DNA of 41,226 bases from an uncultured Sphingomonas sp. (GTDB lineage Bacteria; Pseudomonadota; Alphaproteobacteria; Sphingomonadales; Sphingomonadaceae), in assembly GCF_937859915.1 (NCBI RefSeq), contig NZ_CALMAW010000111.1, forward strand, positions 1,697 to 42,922. The letters are read 5' to 3'. This document shows positions 25,076-39,511 of the stretch, one piece after another (within the stretch, counting starts at the first letter, position 1; every line of letters starts with the position of its first letter). Under the pieces are notes generated by a model, which was not told the DNA's origin, did not search any database, and worked only from the letters and a program-made list of their open reading frames with translations. The position numbers and the translations under genes are program-made.

Positions 25076-26221
25076 ATGACCCTACCCCTCGCCGTCGTCG
25101 CACGGATCGGCGCCTATACCGTCGGCCAGGAGCTGCGCGGTCGCAAATATCCGATGGTGCTGATGCTCGAGCCGCTGCTGCGCTGCAACCTCGCCTGCCC
25201 CGGCTGCGGCAAGATCGACTATCCCGATCCGATCCTCAACCAGCGTCTGTCGTACCAGCAGTGCATGGACGCGATCGACGAATGCGGCGCGCCGGCCGTC
25301 TCGATCGCGGGCGGCGAACCGCTGCTCCACCGCGAGATGCCCAAGATCGTCCAGGGTTATCTCGCGAAGAAGAAGTTCGTCATCCTGTGCACCAATGCGT
25401 TGCTGCTCAAGAAGAAGATCGACGACTACAAGCCGCACAAATATTTCACCTGGTCGATCCATCTCGATGGCGACCAGGCGATGCACGACCATGCCGTCGA
25501 CCAGACCGGCACCTATACCGTCGCGGTCGAGGCGATCGAGCTGGCCAAGGCCAAGGGTTTCCGCGTCCAGGTCAATTGCACCGTGTTCGACGGCGCCGAT
25601 CCGGCCCGGCTGGCGGCGTTCTTCGACGAGATGAAGCGGCTCGACGTCGAGATCACAATCTCGCCCGGCTATGCCTATGAGCGCGCGTCGGACAAGGAGC
25701 ATTTCCTCAGCCGCACCAAGACCAAGACCTTCTTCCGCGACGTCTTCTCGCGTGGCGACAACGGCAAGGCCTGGACCTTCACCAACTCGCCGCTGTTCCT
25801 CGATTTCCTCGCGGGCAACCAGAGCTACGAATGCACGCCCTGGTCGATGCCGCTGCGCACCGTCTTCGGCTGGCAGAAGCCCTGCTACCTTGTCGGCGAA
25901 GGCTATGTGGAGACCTTCTCGGAGCTGATGGAAGGCACCGAGTGGGACGAATATGGCGTCGGCAAGTACGAGAAATGCTCGGACTGCATGGTGCATTGCG
26001 GATTCGAGGGTACGGCCGCGGCCGACGGCATCCGCCATCCGCTCAAATTCATGAACGTTGGTCGCAAGGGCATCCGCACGACGGGCCCGATGGCCGAGGA
26101 CATCGACATCAGCAAGGCGCGCCCTGCCGAGGACGTGTTCTCAACCCATGTCGAGCGGGAGCTCGCGCTGATCGCCAAGACCAAACCCGGCTCGGCAAAG
26201 CACGTCGTAGCCACGACTTAG
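25076..26221 (+). CDS. hpnH: HpnH, adenosyl-hopene synthase (radical SAM)
   Basis: A 381-residue radical SAM enzyme that joins the 5'-deoxyadenosyl group to diploptene, giving adenosylhopane, the first step of C35 hopanoid side-chain formation. The cluster motif is C37-NLA-C41-PG-C44; the SAM-binding GGEPLLHREM follows near residues 80-90, then WSIHLDGDQAMHD. Near the C-terminus is a further Cys group, YEKCSDCMVHCGFEG. Length and sequence pattern fit HpnH closely. A TGAGGA ribosome-binding site lies just before the ATG. The last 81 bp overlap the 3' end of hpnG on the other strand. Confidence 0.96.
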   Translation: MTLPLAVVARIGAYTVGQELRGRKYPMVLMLEPLLRCNLACPGCGKIDYPDPILNQRLSYQQCMDAIDECGAPAVSIAGGEPLLHREMPKIVQGYLAKKKFVILCTNALLLKKKIDDYKPHKYFTWSIHLDGDQAMHDHAVDQTGTYTVAVEAIELAKAKGFRVQVNCTVFDGADPARLAAFFDEMKRLDVEITISPGYAYERASDKEHFLSRTKTKTFFRDVFSRGDNGKAWTFTNSPLFLDFLAGNQSYECTPWSMPLRTVFGWQKPCYLVGEGYVETFSELMEGTEWDEYGVGKYEKCSDCMVHCGFEGTAAADGIRHPLKFMNVGRKGIRTTGPMAEDIDISKARPAEDVFSTHVERELALIAKTKPGSAKHVVATT

Positions 26222-34085: not shown

Positions 34086-35300
34086 ATGCTCGCCGTTCTC
34101 TCGTTCGTCCTAACGCTGCTCGCGATGACCGGCACCGCCTATACGCTCGCCGCCGTGGCGCTCGCCGGGCGATGGCGCACGCCATTGCGGGAGCGGGCGC
34201 TCACCACGCCCCCGCGCAGGCGCGGGCCCAGGCCCGTACGTGGAGATGGCGCGGCGCCTGCTGCCGGCGTCGGGCCTGGGCCCCGGCTTTCGCCGGGGAA
34301 CGCCGATTGGCCATCGATCACCATGCTCAAGCCGCTGCACGGACCTGAGCCGATGCTCGAGGCCAAGCTCGCGAGCTTCCTCGAGCAGGACTATGCCGGG
34401 CCTATCGACATGGTGTGCGGCGTCGCCGACCCGGCCGATCCGGCATTGGAGGCGGCGCGGGCCGTCGATGCCGCTATAGTCTGGAGCAGCGTGCGGCACG
34501 GCTCGAACGGCAAGATCTCCAATCTCATCAACATGGAACCCGCCGCAGCCGGCGACATCCTGATCCTCAGCGACAGCGACATGGTCGTCGGCCCCGATTA
34601 TGCGACGCTCGTGACCGAAGCGCTCGCCCGTCCCGGTGTCGGCGCGGTCACCCTGCCCTATGCCGGGATCGGCGAGACCAACGGCTGGTCGCGGATGGCG
34701 GCGGCGGGGGTCAGCTGGGGGTTTCTGCCCTCGGTGATGATCGGCGTCGCGACCGGCTTGGCGCACCCCTGCATGGGTTCGACGATCGCGCTGCGCCGCG
34801 AGACGCTCGAGTCGATCGGCGGCTTCACGCCGTTCGCTGACCTGCTCGCGGACGATCACGCGATTGGCGCCGCGGTGCGCGGGTTCGGGCTCACCGTCGC
34901 GGTCGCCCCGCCGATCGTGCTCCATGGCTGCAGCGAATCGAGCCTCGCCGCGCTGTGGCGCCACGAGCTGCGCTGGAACGCGACGGTGCGGATGCTCGAC
35001 CCCGCGGGCTATGCCGGCAGCGCGGTGACCCACGCCTTCGCCTGGTCGCTGCTCGCGGTCGCGAGCGGCGCAGGCGGCTGGGTGATCGGCGTGGCGCTGC
35101 TCGCCCGGCTCGCGCTGGCGGCGCGGATCGATGCGCTGGTCGGTCGCCAGACTGCGCCCTTGTGGTGGCTGCCCGCGCGCGACCTGTTGTCTTTCGGCCT
35201 CTATTGGTCGGCCTTCTTCACGCGCTCGGTTGATTGGCGCGGGAGCCGGCTTCATATGACACCCAACGGCCGCATGTCGGCCGAACCGGAGATACATTAG
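34086..35300 (+). CDS. hpnI: HpnI, hopanoid glycosyltransferase, with an in-frame repeat insertion
   Basis: A 404-residue GT21 ceramide-glucosyltransferase-like enzyme that adds N-acetylglucosamine to bacteriohopanetetrol. N-terminal TM (about 3-27), then the GT domain: ITMLKPLHGPEPMLEAKLASFLEQDYAG, SNLINMEPAAAGDILILSDSDMVVGPDY (D-x-D), PCMGSTIALRRETLESIGGF, LLADDHAIGAAVRGFG, and a QxxRW-like HELRWNATVRML; C-terminal hydrophobic segments about 315-345 and 370-385. Residues about 41-73 (RGPRP...GPGPRLSPG) are the translation of a palindromic repeat at 34207-34302, placed between the TM and the catalytic domain. AAGGAG precedes the ATG. hpnJ starts on the base after its stop. Confidence 0.94.
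   Translation: MLAVLSFVLTLLAMTGTAYTLAAVALAGRWRTPLRERALTTPPRRRGPRPVRGDGAAPAAGVGPGPRLSPGNADWPSITMLKPLHGPEPMLEAKLASFLEQDYAGPIDMVCGVADPADPALEAARAVDAAIVWSSVRHGSNGKISNLINMEPAAAGDILILSDSDMVVGPDYATLVTEALARPGVGAVTLPYAGIGETNGWSRMAAAGVSWGFLPSVMIGVATGLAHPCMGSTIALRRETLESIGGFTPFADLLADDHAIGAAVRGFGLTVAVAPPIVLHGCSESSLAALWRHELRWNATVRMLDPAGYAGSAVTHAFAWSLLAVASGAGGWVIGVALLARLALAARIDALVGRQTAPLWWLPARDLLSFGLYWSAFFTRSVDWRGSRLHMTPNGRMSAEPEIH
34207..34302. repeat. Palindromic repeat element inserted in frame inside hpnI
   Basis: Arms at 34207-34235 and 34272-34302 share CCCC-GC...GGGCCCAGGCCC in inverted orientation with a few mismatches. Each arm is itself a hairpin: CCCGCGC-AG-GCGCGGG and CCCCGGC-TTTC-GCCGGGG. It is related in design, and partly in sequence (CCGGC-TTTCGCCGGG core), to the truB copy at 3617-3710. 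The reading frame stays open, adding about 32 residues. Confidence 0.82.
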
Positions 35301-36749
35301 ATGACGCTTCGCACGCTCTTCATGCAGGGCCCCTCGTTCGACGGCTATGACGGCGGCGCCGGCGCGCGCTACCAGATGAAGCGCGAGGTGAAGAGCTTCT
35401 GGTATCCGACCTGGCTGGCGCAGCCCGCCGCGATGATCGAAGGCTCGCGCCTGATCGACGCGCCCGCGCACGATCAGAGCTGGGACGACATCAAGCATGA
35501 GGTCGACAATCGCGACCTGATCATCCTCCACACCTCGACGCCGAGTTTTCGTCAGGACGTGCAGACCGCCGAGCTGGTCAAGCAGCGCAACCCCACGGCG
35601 CTGGTCGGCATGGTCGGTGCCAAGGTGATGATCGAGGACGAGAAAGCGCTCGCCGCCACCACCGCGCTCGATTTCGTCTGCCGCGAGGAATATGACTTCA
35701 CCTGCGTCGAGCTGGCCGCGGGCCGCCCGCTCGCCGAAATCGACGGCATCACGTATCGCGCCCCCGACGGCACGATCGTGCGCAACCGGGACCGCGCGCA
35801 GATCGAGGACATGGACGTCCTGCCGATGGTCTCACCGATCTACCGGCGCGACCTCGACCTGAACAAATATTATGGCGGCTACCAGCGCCACCCCTATGTC
35901 AGCTTCTACACCGGGCGCGGCTGCAAGAGCCGCTGCACCTTCTGCCTGTGGCCGCAGACGATCAGCGGCCACCGCTATCGGCACCGCACCGTCGGCAAGG
36001 TGATCGAGGAGGTCCAGTACATCCTCAAGGAAATGCCCGAGATCAAGGAGATCTTCTTCGACGACGACACGCTGGCCGATGCGCACGCCTTCGTTGTCGA
36101 ACTGTCGGGCGAGCTCCGGAAGCTCGGCTTCGGCACGCCTGGTTTCCCCGTCACCTGGGGCTGCAACGCCAAGGCCAACGTGCCCCAGCCGGTGCTGAAG
36201 GCGATGAAGGAAGGCGGCTGTCGCGTGCTGCTGGTCGGCTACGAAAGCGGCAACCAGCAGATCCTGCACAACATCAAGAAGGGCCTGCGCGTCGACGTCG
36301 CACGCCAGTTCACCAAGGACGCGCACGCGCTGGGTCTCACGATCCACGGCACCTTCATCCTCGGCCTCCCCGGCGAAACGCTGGAGACGATCGAGGAGAC
36401 GATCAAATATGCGCAGGAGATCAACCCGCACACCATCCAGGTGTCGCTCGCGGCGCCCTATCCGGGCACCTTCCTGTACAAGCAGGCGGTCGAGAATGGC
36501 TGGTTCGACGACAGCAACGACCTGCTCACCGACGACGGTACGCAGATCGCGCAGCTGAGCTACCCGCATCTCCATGCGAGCGTGATCTTCGACAAGGTCG
36601 AGGAATTTTACAAACGCTTCTACTTCCGCCCCCGCAAGATGGGCGCGATGGTAGGCGAGATGGTGCGCGACTGGGACATGATGAAGCGCCGTCTCCGCGA
36701 AGGCGTCGAGTTCTTCTCGTTCCTGCACAATCGCAAGAAGGCGGCGTAA
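35301..36749 (+). CDS. hpnJ: HpnJ, hopanoid B12-binding-type radical SAM enzyme
   Basis: A 482-residue radical SAM protein with an N-terminal cobalamin-binding-like domain (about 1-165: TLFMQGPSFDGYDGG, DLIILHTSTPSFRQDV, ALVGMVGAKVMIED). The [4Fe-4S]/SAM core has C208-KSR-C212-TF-C215 in YTGRGCKSRCTFCLWPQ, EIFFDDDTLADAHAF, LLVGYESGNQQIL and GTFILGLPGETLETIEETI. HpnJ is required for the cyclitol-ether head group (ring contraction of the glucosamine). It begins one base after the hpnI stop, with GGAGATAC inside hpnI as ribosome-binding site. Of normal length; all cluster cysteines present. Confidence 0.95.
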   Translation: MTLRTLFMQGPSFDGYDGGAGARYQMKREVKSFWYPTWLAQPAAMIEGSRLIDAPAHDQSWDDIKHEVDNRDLIILHTSTPSFRQDVQTAELVKQRNPTALVGMVGAKVMIEDEKALAATTALDFVCREEYDFTCVELAAGRPLAEIDGITYRAPDGTIVRNRDRAQIEDMDVLPMVSPIYRRDLDLNKYYGGYQRHPYVSFYTGRGCKSRCTFCLWPQTISGHRYRHRTVGKVIEEVQYILKEMPEIKEIFFDDDTLADAHAFVVELSGELRKLGFGTPGFPVTWGCNAKANVPQPVLKAMKEGGCRVLLVGYESGNQQILHNIKKGLRVDVARQFTKDAHALGLTIHGTFILGLPGETLETIEETIKYAQEINPHTIQVSLAAPYPGTFLYKQAVENGWFDDSNDLLTDDGTQIAQLSYPHLHASVIFDKVEEFYKRFYFRPRKMGAMVGEMVRDWDMMKRRLREGVEFFSFLHNRKKAA

Positions 36750-36783: not shown

Positions 36784-37635
36784 ATGTTGATCGTCACCGC
36801 CGATGATTTCGGCGCCTCGATCGCGGTCAATGCGGCGGTCGAGCAGGCGCATACGCACGGCATCCTCACCGCCGCCAGCCTGATGGTCGCGGGCGACGCC
36901 GCCGGCGATGCGGTCGAGCGCGCCAAAAGACTGCCGAGCCTGGGGGTGGGCCTGCATCTCGTGCTCGTCGAGGGGCGCCCGGTGCTGCCCCCCGCGCGCA
37001 TCCCCGATCTGGTCGACGCCACCGGGCAATTCCGCACCAACATGGCGCTCGCCGGCGTAAATTTCTTCTTCCGGCGGGCGGTGCGCGCGCAGCTCGCCGC
37101 CGAGATCGAGGCGCAGTTCGCCGCCTTCCATGCGACCGGACTGCCGCTCGATCACGTCAACGCGCACAAGCATTTCCACCTCCACCCGACGATCGCCGCG
37201 CTGATCCTGACGATCGGCCGCCGCTACGGGCTGGCCGCCGCCCGTGCGCCGGTCGAGCCGGTCGACCTGCTCGCCAGGCTCGAGCCGGTACCGCGCACGC
37301 TCGCCGGTCGCCTTGCGGCGCCCTATGCGCGCGCGGTTGCGCGTCGTTTCCGCGAGGCCGGGCTCGTCGTTCCCGATCGCGTGCTCGGCCTCGCCTGGAG
37401 CGGCCACATGACCCGAGCGCGGGTCGCCGGCCTGATCGCGCACCTGCCCGACGGCGTCACCGAACTCTATTGCCATCCCGCCACCGAGGACGCCTATCCG
37501 GGCTCGGCGCCGGGTTACGCCTATCGCGCCGAACTCGCGGCGCTGACCGATGAATCCATCAAAGACAACATCTTGCAACGCGGTATCCGCTTAGTAAATT
37601 TTGCGGATCTTGGCGCGAAGGAGGTGGCGGCATGA
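36784..37635 (+). CDS. hpnK: HpnK, hopanoid-associated YdjC-like deacetylase
   Basis: A 283-residue YdjC/ChbG-family carbohydrate deacetylase. HpnK removes the acetyl group from GlcNAc-bacteriohopanetetrol to give the glucosamine form. Metal and catalytic residues: DDFG in LIVTADDFGASIAVN, HLVLVEGRPVLP, the HVNAHKHFHLHP motif (metal-binding His), and ELYCHPATED near the C-terminus. The N-terminus AAVEQAHTHGILTAASLMVAGDAA is typical. It follows hpnJ after 34 bp and overlaps the next gene by 4 bp. Its ribosome-binding site is in a hairpin. Confidence 0.94.
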   Translation: MLIVTADDFGASIAVNAAVEQAHTHGILTAASLMVAGDAAGDAVERAKRLPSLGVGLHLVLVEGRPVLPPARIPDLVDATGQFRTNMALAGVNFFFRRAVRAQLAAEIEAQFAAFHATGLPLDHVNAHKHFHLHPTIAALILTIGRRYGLAAARAPVEPVDLLARLEPVPRTLAGRLAAPYARAVARRFREAGLVVPDRVLGLAWSGHMTRARVAGLIAHLPDGVTELYCHPATEDAYPGSAPGYAYRAELAALTDESIKDNILQRGIRLVNFADLGAKEVAA

Positions 37636-38537
37636 GCATGATGGAGAAGATCGAGGCGCCCGCGCCTCCGCCCGGCGAGGCGATCAAGCACGGTAGCGAG
37701 GCGCATCTGCGGCTGTTCTGCCGGATGCTGCTCGACACGCACGATCCCTATCGTCCCGCGCTGATCCAATGGCCCACGCTCGACGAGAAGACCCGCCGGC
37801 GGATCGTGTCGCTGCCGGTATGGGACATGGCGGTCGCCGCCGAGGGCCGCACGGGCCTCTATGTCCGCCTGTTCGGCGAGACCGTCGCCGATCCGCTGCT
37901 CAAGGCCGCGGTCGAGATGGACGCGTTCGAGGAGAGCCGGCACAAGGTCGTGCTGTCCGATCTCGTCGCCGCCTATGACATCGCGCTCGCGCCCGAGCCC
38001 GCGATCCGACGCCCCCGGGACGCCGAATGGGCGTTCATGCGCGCGGGCTATTCGGAATGTATCGACAGTTTCTTCGGATTCGGGCTGTTCAAGCTTGCCA
38101 AGGACACCGGTTTCTTCCCGCCTGCGCTGATCGACACGTTCGAGCCGGTGATGCGCGAGGAGGGGCGGCACATCCTGTTCTTCGTCAACTGGGTCGCCTG
38201 GTGGCGGCGGACGATGCCCTGGTGGCGGCGCCCGCTGTTCGAGGCCAAGGTGATTGCGGTATGGTGCGCGCTCGTCTGGGAGCGGATCGACATGGCCAAG
38301 GGAATGGGCGACAGCAGCAAGGCGCAGGAGAACAACTTCACGCTCAACGGATCCAAGGAACTGGGCGTCGAAGTGACATTCCCGCAGCTCGCCCGCATCT
38401 GCCTCGTCGAGAATGACCGACGGCTCGCGCCTTACGATCAACGGCTGCTGCGCCCGCGCTTCGTGCCCGGGATGATTCGCCTGGCGCTGCGCTTCGCGGG
38501 CAAGCCGCCCCGGTCGACGGAGCCGGTCGCGACATGA
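37632..38537 (+). CDS. Ferritin-like di-iron protein of unknown function in the hopanoid operon
   Basis: A 301-residue protein that I cannot name. It carries a complete ferritin-like di-iron ligand set in the expected order: E71 (AAEGRT), E101-SR-H104 (FEESRHK), E142 (YSECID) and E177-GR-H180 (REEGRHIL), i.e. Glu, ExxH, Glu, ExxH on four predicted helices about 60-190. Around 185-220 is a Trp-rich hydrophobic stretch (NWVAWWRRTMPWWRR, then VIAVWCALVWERID), suggesting membrane contact. No signal peptide, so cytoplasmic or peripheral. Start ATG 37632 overlaps the hpnK stop by 4 bp and its own end overlaps hpnL by 4 bp, so it is made together with them. An oxygenase, oxidase or desaturase acting on hopanoids is a plausible but untested idea. 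Confidence 0.85.
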   Translation: MSMMEKIEAPAPPPGEAIKHGSEAHLRLFCRMLLDTHDPYRPALIQWPTLDEKTRRRIVSLPVWDMAVAAEGRTGLYVRLFGETVADPLLKAAVEMDAFEESRHKVVLSDLVAAYDIALAPEPAIRRPRDAEWAFMRAGYSECIDSFFGFGLFKLAKDTGFFPPALIDTFEPVMREEGRHILFFVNWVAWWRRTMPWWRRPLFEAKVIAVWCALVWERIDMAKGMGDSSKAQENNFTLNGSKELGVEVTFPQLARICLVENDRRLAPYDQRLLRPRFVPGMIRLALRFAGKPPRSTEPVAT

Positions 38538-39511
38538 CCGCCCGCCTGCGCTGGCCGATCGCGCTGGCTACGCTGCTCGGCCTGGGAGCGGCGGTGTGGG
38601 CGATGGGATCGGTGGGATTTTCCGCGCTCGCCGATGCTGCGTTGCACATTGGCGTGGGCGGATTTCTCGCCTTCTGCGCGGCGAGCGTACTCCTCTCCGC
38701 GATCCTCGGCGCGGCCTGGTGGGCCTCGATGCCTGGCGAGCCGCTGCGCCTGCTCCCGCTGTTCGGCTGGGCGCGCATGGTGCGCGAGGGCGCGAACGAC
38801 CTGCTCCCGTTCAGCCAGATCGGCGGGCTCGTCGTCGGTGGCCGCACGCTGACCGCAGCGGGGCTGGCGGCGCCGCGCGTCTATGCCGCGATGGTGGTCG
38901 ATCTCACCACCGAAATGGCCTCGCAGGTCGCGTTCACGCTGTTCGGCGTGGCGACGTTGGGATCGCTGCTCGTCGACGGAGGACGGCATGGCGTCGCCCC
39001 GCTGGCGTGGATCGGGGTCGGCGTGTCGATCGCGGTGACCGCGGCGTTCATCCTGCTCCAGCGGCCGATGCTGCGACTGGCGGGGACGCTCGCCACCAAG
39101 CTGCTGCCCGACAGCGCGCTGTCGATGGACCGACTGCATGCCGAACTCGCCGGAATCTATGCGCGCAAGGGCGCGGTCGCCTTGTCCTTTGCGCTCAATC
39201 TTGCGGGCTGGCTCTATGCCGCAGCCTTGGCCGCGATGGTGCTGGCGATGATCGGATCGCCGATTGCGCTGTGGCGGATCGCCGCGCTCGAGAGCCTCAT
39301 CTTCGCGCTGCGCGGCGCGGCGTTCGTGATCCCCGGGGCGATCGGCGTGCAGGAGGCGGGCTATGTGCTGCTCGGGCCCTTGATCGGGCTCGACCCCGAG
39401 GCCGCCGTCGCGCTGTCGCTGATCAAGCGCGCGCGCGATGTCGCGATCGGGCTGCCCGCGCTGCTGGTCTGGCAGGCACGCGAGCTTGGTATACGGCGCG
39501 TAACCGTTTGA
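38534..39511 (+). CDS. hpnL: HpnL, hopanoid-associated multi-pass membrane protein
   Basis: A 325-residue integral membrane protein of the lysylphosphatidylglycerol-synthase TM/UPF0104-like superfamily, HpnL branch. About seven or eight hydrophobic helices, for example WPIALATLLGLGAAVWAMGSV, VGGFLAFCAASVLLSAILGAAWW, PLAWIGVGVSIAVTAAFILL, FALNLAGWLYAAALAAMVLAMI and the C-terminal DVAIGLPALLVWQARE. The family motif region REGANDLLPFSQIGGLVVGGR and the late FALRGAAFVIPGAIGVQEAGYVLLG are conserved features. No catalytic LPG-synthase domain is present. It lies at the end of the hpnI-J-K-ferritin-like-hpnL operon; a lipid flipping or head-group role is inferred only. Confidence 0.9.
   Translation: MTARLRWPIALATLLGLGAAVWAMGSVGFSALADAALHIGVGGFLAFCAASVLLSAILGAAWWASMPGEPLRLLPLFGWARMVREGANDLLPFSQIGGLVVGGRTLTAAGLAAPRVYAAMVVDLTTEMASQVAFTLFGVATLGSLLVDGGRHGVAPLAWIGVGVSIAVTAAFILLQRPMLRLAGTLATKLLPDSALSMDRLHAELAGIYARKGAVALSFALNLAGWLYAAALAAMVLAMIGSPIALWRIAALESLIFALRGAAFVIPGAIGVQEAGYVLLGPLIGLDPEAAVALSLIKRARDVAIGLPALLVWQARELGIRRVTV

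Follow-up and report, generated by a model that had tools for sequence, protein, structure and literature searches.

A candidate di-iron hydroxylase of the hopanoid side chain encoded between hpnK and hpnL in Sphingomonas

Introduction

Hopanoids are the 'bacterial sterol' membrane lipids, and their polyols serve as biomarkers in the study of soils and ancient sediments. Here, we analysed a stretch of DNA from an uncultured Sphingomonas sp. (41,226 nucleotides of contig NZ_CALMAW010000111.1; this whole stretch is called the window) in which a gene without a named protein family lies between the hopanoid genes hpnK and hpnL. The gene, named FDI in this work, is an open reading frame for 301 amino acids (37632–38537; forward strand, as all features of the window given below). 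What reaction could its product add to hopanoid metabolism? In a 2025 survey of 54 alphaproteobacterial strains the genes for bacteriohopanepentol and bacteriohopanehexol are called unknown, and its search in the vicinity of hpn clusters gave no candidate for them (PMC12583986; this and all further statements on the survey refer to the portion of its text available to us). FDI may have been overlooked in that search because no domain model matches it. On the evidence presented here, it is somewhat probable that FDI works as an O2-dependent di-iron (or Mn/Fe) enzyme which hydroxylates the side chain of bacteriohopanepolyols, and it would convert bacteriohopanetetrol to bacteriohopanepentol.

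FDI has conserved di-iron-type ligands and a predicted helical-bundle fold

An earlier note on this DNA had described the product as an uncharacterised protein with the ligand pattern of ferritin-like di-iron enzymes and a Trp-rich stretch, and these descriptions hold. The residue numbering was verified: the proposed metal ligands are E71 (codon at 37842–37844), E101-x-x-H104 (37932–37943), E142 (38055–38057) and E177-x-x-H180 (38160–38171). All six are identical in every letter-bearing row of an alignment of 88 homologous rows (87/87 for E71 and for E101 and H104, 88/88 for E142 and for E177 and H180). This conservation is beyond chance, and it should be read with the rows not being independent, as many come from close sphingomonads and some genomes are present in two collections; rows of a second FDI-like domain (discussed below) reach down to about 32–37% identity to the window protein. 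The Trp-rich stretch covers residues 187–198 (38190–38225, with W187, W190, W191, W197 and W198, whose numbering was verified as well), and in 25 aligned homologues W187 and W190 are invariant and W198 almost so. Neither Pfam nor NCBIfam has a model that matches the protein at E≤1, Pfam has none even at E≤10, and a sequence search found no similar solved structure. Its relatives show distant profile similarity to known di-iron families. In listings at E≤10, rubrerythrin (PF02915) matches 15 of 39 relatives (best E 3.2e-6) and AurF (PF11583) matches 10 of 39 (best E 0.0069), whereas the window protein itself matches neither model. Similarly, a 39-row FDI profile reaches a chain like the MiaE-type hydroxylases (E 0.27), and the two ExxH motifs of this chain align in register.

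The AlphaFold model of FDI is a confidently predicted helical bundle (mean predicted local distance difference test score, pLDDT, 86.3; predicted template modelling score, pTM, 0.85), in which E71, E101/H104, E142 and E177/H180 lie on the long helices 64–82, 88–114, 131–159 and 164–194, respectively. The predicted structure and the structural alignment thus support the fold type and the four-helix ligand placement put forward in the earlier note, and a four-helix bundle with E, ExxH, E and ExxH would place FDI in the ferritin-like di-iron carboxylate superfamily. Because of this helix placement and the structural alignment, we infer that the six residues would meet at one site. The structures closest to the model are R2-like ligand-binding oxidases (R2lox) and ribonucleotide-reductase R2. 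FDI differs from R2lox by an identity of only about 16%, the lack of a match to the R2lox or any Pfam model, a spacing between the first His and the third Glu that is 24 residues shorter, and its residues at the two cross-link positions: the Val of R2lox (+3 from the first Glu) is A/T in FDI, and the Tyr (−5 from the third Glu) is V/R/M. Unlike R2, it matches no R2 model and occurs only together with hpnH in our samples (25/25 FDI-bearing genomes). GkR2loxI, a member of the nearest fold family, is reported to hydroxylate alkanes, and proteins with this fold can insert oxygen directly (PMC10867098, in the part of that paper used here). C–H hydroxylation by a protein of this fold is therefore plausible, though a ligand mutant of the enzyme lost little activity.

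In the genomes sampled, FDI occurs only with the hopanoid-polyol marker hpnH

In this analysis we used hpnH as the marker of hopanoid-polyol producers. Of 289 genomes sampled at class level, 18 carry FDI and 77 have HpnH above its cut-off; every one of the 18 FDI carriers also has HpnH, and FDI is absent from the 212 genomes with no HpnH above the cut-off (two marginal FDI matches were dropped). The association is significant both by genome (p 9e-12) and by family (p about 3e-7 to 5e-7, with the family total assumed to be 157 or 150). In a phylum-level sample of 398 genomes FDI was found in 14, after five marginal matches were dropped; seven of these were new with respect to the class sample, and all seven have HpnH. 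The expectation that homologues track the hpn genes thus holds for hpnH in all 25 FDI-bearing genomes, while it holds only partly for hpnJ (14/25) and hpnL (24/30). Five weak profile matches (G042, G183, G487, G522 and G525; E 1.7e-4 to 9.5e-4) are excluded from every count. G042 and G183 have no HpnH above the cut-off, and the G183 match is not FDI, scoring above the AurF Pfam threshold. One genome (G184) carries FDI as two pieces on two contigs and was counted as FDI-bearing; because of its score it was not counted among the carriers of the second domain. As a separate observation, a 371-amino-acid AurF-family di-iron protein (L123:1060–2175) lies just downstream of a gene resembling IspH by eye, in a genome without HpnH above the cut-off; it is possibly another isoprenoid-linked di-iron enzyme.

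FDI was missing from 59 of the 77 hpnH genomes of the class sample. It is therefore an optional modification, and we rejected an essential step on the way to bacteriohopanetetrol as its role. In a Sphingomonadales sample, hpnH is present in 25 of 257 genomes and FDI in 7 of these 25, all 7 falling among the 15 hpnH genomes of one family (0/10 in other families). In several genomes FDI and hpnH are far apart, and the neighbours of FDI that were scanned are mostly recognisable genes of other pathways; the association is thus not merely one of physical linkage. FDI copies outside hpn clusters still occur in hpnH genomes, and FDI is part of hopanoid metabolism even where it is unlinked to hpn genes.

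A scan of named genome contigs gave 59 FDI loci: 39 from Sphingomonadales, 4 from Caulobacterales, 2 from Rhodospirillales, 2 from Acetobacterales and 12 without an order label. A core hpn gene is present on the same stretch in 46 of the 59. Where the stretch is long enough to show it, the gene directly upstream of FDI encodes HpnK (43 of 55 loci) and the one directly downstream an HpnL homologue (47 of 57). Plasmid records added 13 matches, all from Burkholderia, Caballeronia, Cupriavidus and Paraburkholderia; the FDI gene of Cupriavidus metallidurans CH34 adjoins hpnB, hpnA, ispH, hpnH and hpnN. Thus, in the samples searched, FDI is found in hpn clusters and is confined to hopanoid-polyol producers.

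Some loci deserve a separate mention. A 3.2 kb contig labelled Actinobacteria bacterium 21-64-8 (L001:1–3190) encodes FDI and HpnL 97–100% identical to those of the window, and is most likely a mis-binned sphingomonad contig, not an inter-phylum transfer. In a genome of 1.8 Mb (G076, locus L111) FDI adjoins the gene of the acetyl-CoA carboxylase alpha subunit, on another contig than hpnH. 16S ribosomal RNA could be recovered, often in fragments, from 16 of 78 and from 30 of 77 genomes, and the genome chosen as centre (G218) is the single genome of its order; G559 was nearest Burkholderiales among the genomes looked up in this way.

FDI presence agrees with measured pentol in the comparable strains

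Four strains recovered by the named scan are also listed in Table 3 of the survey, with the following shares of pentol plus hexol: S. mali 90%, Sphingobium estronivorans AXB 41%, S. formosensis CC-Nfb-2 23% and N. nitrogenifigens DSM 19370 15%. In all four FDI lies within the cluster, as would be the case if it were a pentol hydroxylase. At genus level, FDI in Acidocella fits the 21% of pentol plus hexol in Acidocella aminolytica. At species level, FDI in Burkholderia cenocepacia fits a pentol cyclitol ether annotated from tandem mass spectra (MS2) in that species, as stated in the part of PMC8560942 used here. On the wider scale, pentol and hexol are absent from the Hyphomicrobiales of the survey, and hexol, rarer than pentol, is found only in Rhodospirillales and is absent from Sphingomonadales. 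Among the matches listed from open-licence PubMed Central we found no paper naming a hopanoid di-iron enzyme or a pentol or hexol hydroxylase.

A second FDI-like domain and the proposed reactions

At three loci (L045, L046 and L052) FDI continues into a second, fused FDI-like domain, which has about 36% identity to the window protein and keeps all six ligands. In five genomes (G066, G114, G140, G239 and G605) it is a separate copy, in tandem or within about 15 kb. A tree was built from 63 of the 88 rows, after 25 rows of closely related sphingomonad loci had been set aside. In it the eight second-domain rows form one clade (Shimodaira–Hasegawa-like approximate likelihood ratio test, SH-aLRT, 100); the rooting is unsure, as a long branch (L119) joins near this clade. 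The second domain was seen only together with FDI (8/8 genomes or loci) and in none of the 39 Sphingomonadales loci, and seven FDI-bearing Sphingomonadales genomes have one match each. This nested occurrence, with none in Sphingomonadales, fits a two-step pathway to pentol and then hexol, hexol being the rarer product. We tentatively suggest, as a proposal that falls a little short of even chances, that FDI makes pentol (hydroxylation at C-31) and its paralogous second domain hexol (C-30), the two being fused in some bacteria as a two-step di-iron enzyme; within the R2/R2lox fold, the family would then form a new branch that hydroxylates lipids.

In the proposed reaction, FDI would most likely insert a single oxygen at C-31, the CH2 that adjoins the tetrol, with bacteriohopanetetrol or an early derivative as the substrate and bacteriohopanepentol as the product. 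HpnI, HpnK and HpnJ, where present, would then add the head group to form the pentol cyclitol ether. The Trp-rich, hydrophobic region that flanks the four-helix bundle may hold the hopane skeleton. O2 would be activated at a putative metal centre of the E/H site, followed by abstraction of a C–H hydrogen and rebound of OH. The electrons may come from a general ferredoxin or flavoprotein.

Alternative roles of FDI

The earlier note had proposed an enzyme acting on hopanoids or on the cyclitol-ether head group, and it is the first of these that stands with the hpnH association. A role on the cyclitol-ether or glucosamine head group, e.g., as a ring hydroxylase or oxidase, would be in line with the overlap of FDI with hpnK and with the frequent HpnK gene upstream. 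HpnJ above the cut-off is also commoner with FDI (14/25) than in hpnH genomes lacking it (14/55, p 0.01; the search covered 55 of the 59 such genomes of the class sample, the four omitted being less than 80% complete). However, 11 of the 25 FDI-bearing genomes have no HpnJ above the cut-off, seven of them being listed as 99–100% complete (G037, G066, G115, G165, G263, G515 and G521), so the cyclitol ether is probably not the substrate. Conversely, two Sphingomonadaceae genomes (G824 and G833; loci L194 and L195) have hpnA, B, C, D, E, H, I, J and K arranged as usual, with no FDI on the hpn stretch or elsewhere in the genome and no HpnL above the cut-off. Thus FDI is neither needed for the cyclitol-ether head group nor dependent on it; a head-group role is weakened and rather improbable, and side-chain hydroxylation to pentol or hexol fits better. 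It is also unlikely that FDI performs another modification which Table 3 does not resolve, or that it is a protein with a metal site that acts as a hopanoid-binding accessory, an oxygen sensor or a carrier. Several of the 63 structures found in the survey have no known genes, and R2lox co-purifies with a bound fatty acid (in the part of the R2lox literature used here). An accessory role would also suit the HpnL homologue that adjoins FDI without a core hpn gene in view at L045, L050 and L053 (about 10 kb on both sides) and at L046, L052 and L057 (less). Against these roles stand the agreement with pentol plus hexol in the four comparable strains and the nesting of the second domain inside FDI occurrence as of hexol in pentol. 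As to HpnL itself, it is above the cut-off in 24 of 30 FDI-bearing and 22 of 50 FDI-lacking hpnH genomes (50 of the 77 of the latter kind then known), and so an obligate partnership holds only partly; the adjacency at loci that show no core hpn gene nevertheless suggests that HpnL works with FDI or its product. Four such loci have the single or fused double FDI followed directly by the HpnL homologue (L045:9950–12713, L046:3462–6253, L050:9938–11842 and L053:9881–11845). In three Sphingomonas loci (L031, L032 and L034) FDI and HpnL are separated by about 1.5–1.8 kb, while in most other loci they are adjacent.

Two further alternatives concern the chemistry. FDI could be an oxidase giving a 32-oxo hopanoid (or another ketone or enol), to which a separate hydratase or general chemistry adds the C-31 hydroxyl. 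The survey favours this route of oxidation and hydration for pentol, citing a 32-oxo hopanoid in Zymomonas (PMC12583986, section 4.1.2.6); a di-iron oxidase could perform the first step, and all the co-occurrence data fit equally well. However, no second gene is conspicuous beside the unlinked FDI copies, with their neighbours mostly from other pathways, and proteins of this fold can insert oxygen directly; we thus regard the oxidase as having a low probability. Acyl-acyl carrier protein desaturases share the ligand pattern of FDI. A ring desaturase making delta-6 or delta-11 hopanoids would also be consistent with most Acetobacteraceae of the survey's table, and B. cenocepacia, making both unsaturated and pentol hopanoids. 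However, unsaturated hopanoids amount to 0, 0, 0 and 1% in the four measured FDI-bearing sphingomonads, while they reach 43% in Afipia broomeae, a member of the Hyphomicrobiales, from which the named scan gave no FDI locus. This role is thus weakened and very improbable.

Several points weigh against bacteriohopanetetrol hydroxylation by FDI as well, the preference of the survey for the 32-oxo route being one of them. Six of the eight polyol producers of Sphingomonadales in the table make pentol, and so the 4/4 agreement, a small sample within this order, has a chance probability of about 0.2 (calculated by hand); as it is expected by chance about once in five, the weight rests on the combined evidence. 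The comparison covers producers alone, the non-producers N. rosa, S. changbaiensis and the Hyphomicrobiales species standing outside it, and two producers, S. haloaromaticamans (51%) and Stakelama sediminis (20%), are not among the FDI loci of the named scan, whose peptide seeds favour near relatives. The B. cenocepacia strain carrying FDI differs from the strains profiled, and no hpn gene was recognised near FDI on that stretch. HpnJ is commoner with FDI than without it, if far from following it as a rule. With regard to the fold, Foldseek gave no E-value below 0.001 (best 1.2e-3), the Z scores of the R2 matches come within one unit of those for R2lox, and the E202A/H205A mutation of R2loxI lowered alkane activity only slightly (PMC10867098, same part).

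The hpn cluster of the window

The hpn genes around FDI were recognised with NCBIfam models. As claimed in the earlier note, FDI stands among hopanoid genes and shares 4 bp with each flanking gene, which the open reading frame coordinates confirm. hpnK (36784–37635; TIGR03473, 374 bits, cut-off 232.6) overlaps its start and hpnL (38534–39511; TIGR03476, 272 bits, cut-off 195.65) its end. Upstream lie hpnJ, encoding a radical SAM protein (35301–36749; TIGR03471, 730 bits, cut-off 577.6), and hpnI, encoding a glycosyltransferase (34086–35300; TIGR03472, 371.5 bits, cut-off 310). Farther away are hpnH, for adenosyl-hopene transferase (25076–26221; TIGR03470, 495 bits, cut-off 225), hpnN, hpnC and the squalene-hopene cyclase gene, all above their curated thresholds, while hpnG and hpnM score slightly below theirs. 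FDI thus resembles the named genes (hpnA–P and R) in sharing one operon with hpnI-J-K-L and in co-occurring with hpnH in all FDI-bearing genomes sampled. In contrast to them it has no hpn name, and none of the hpn families identified in the window is a di-iron protein.

Significance

FDI is a strong candidate for the pentol-forming enzyme whose gene was reported as unknown in 2025. If bacteriohopanetetrol hydroxylation is indeed its function, the production of pentol and hexol would become predictable from genomes, these lipids would be tied to molecular oxygen in these bacteria, and the R2/R2lox fold would gain a lipid hydroxylase branch.
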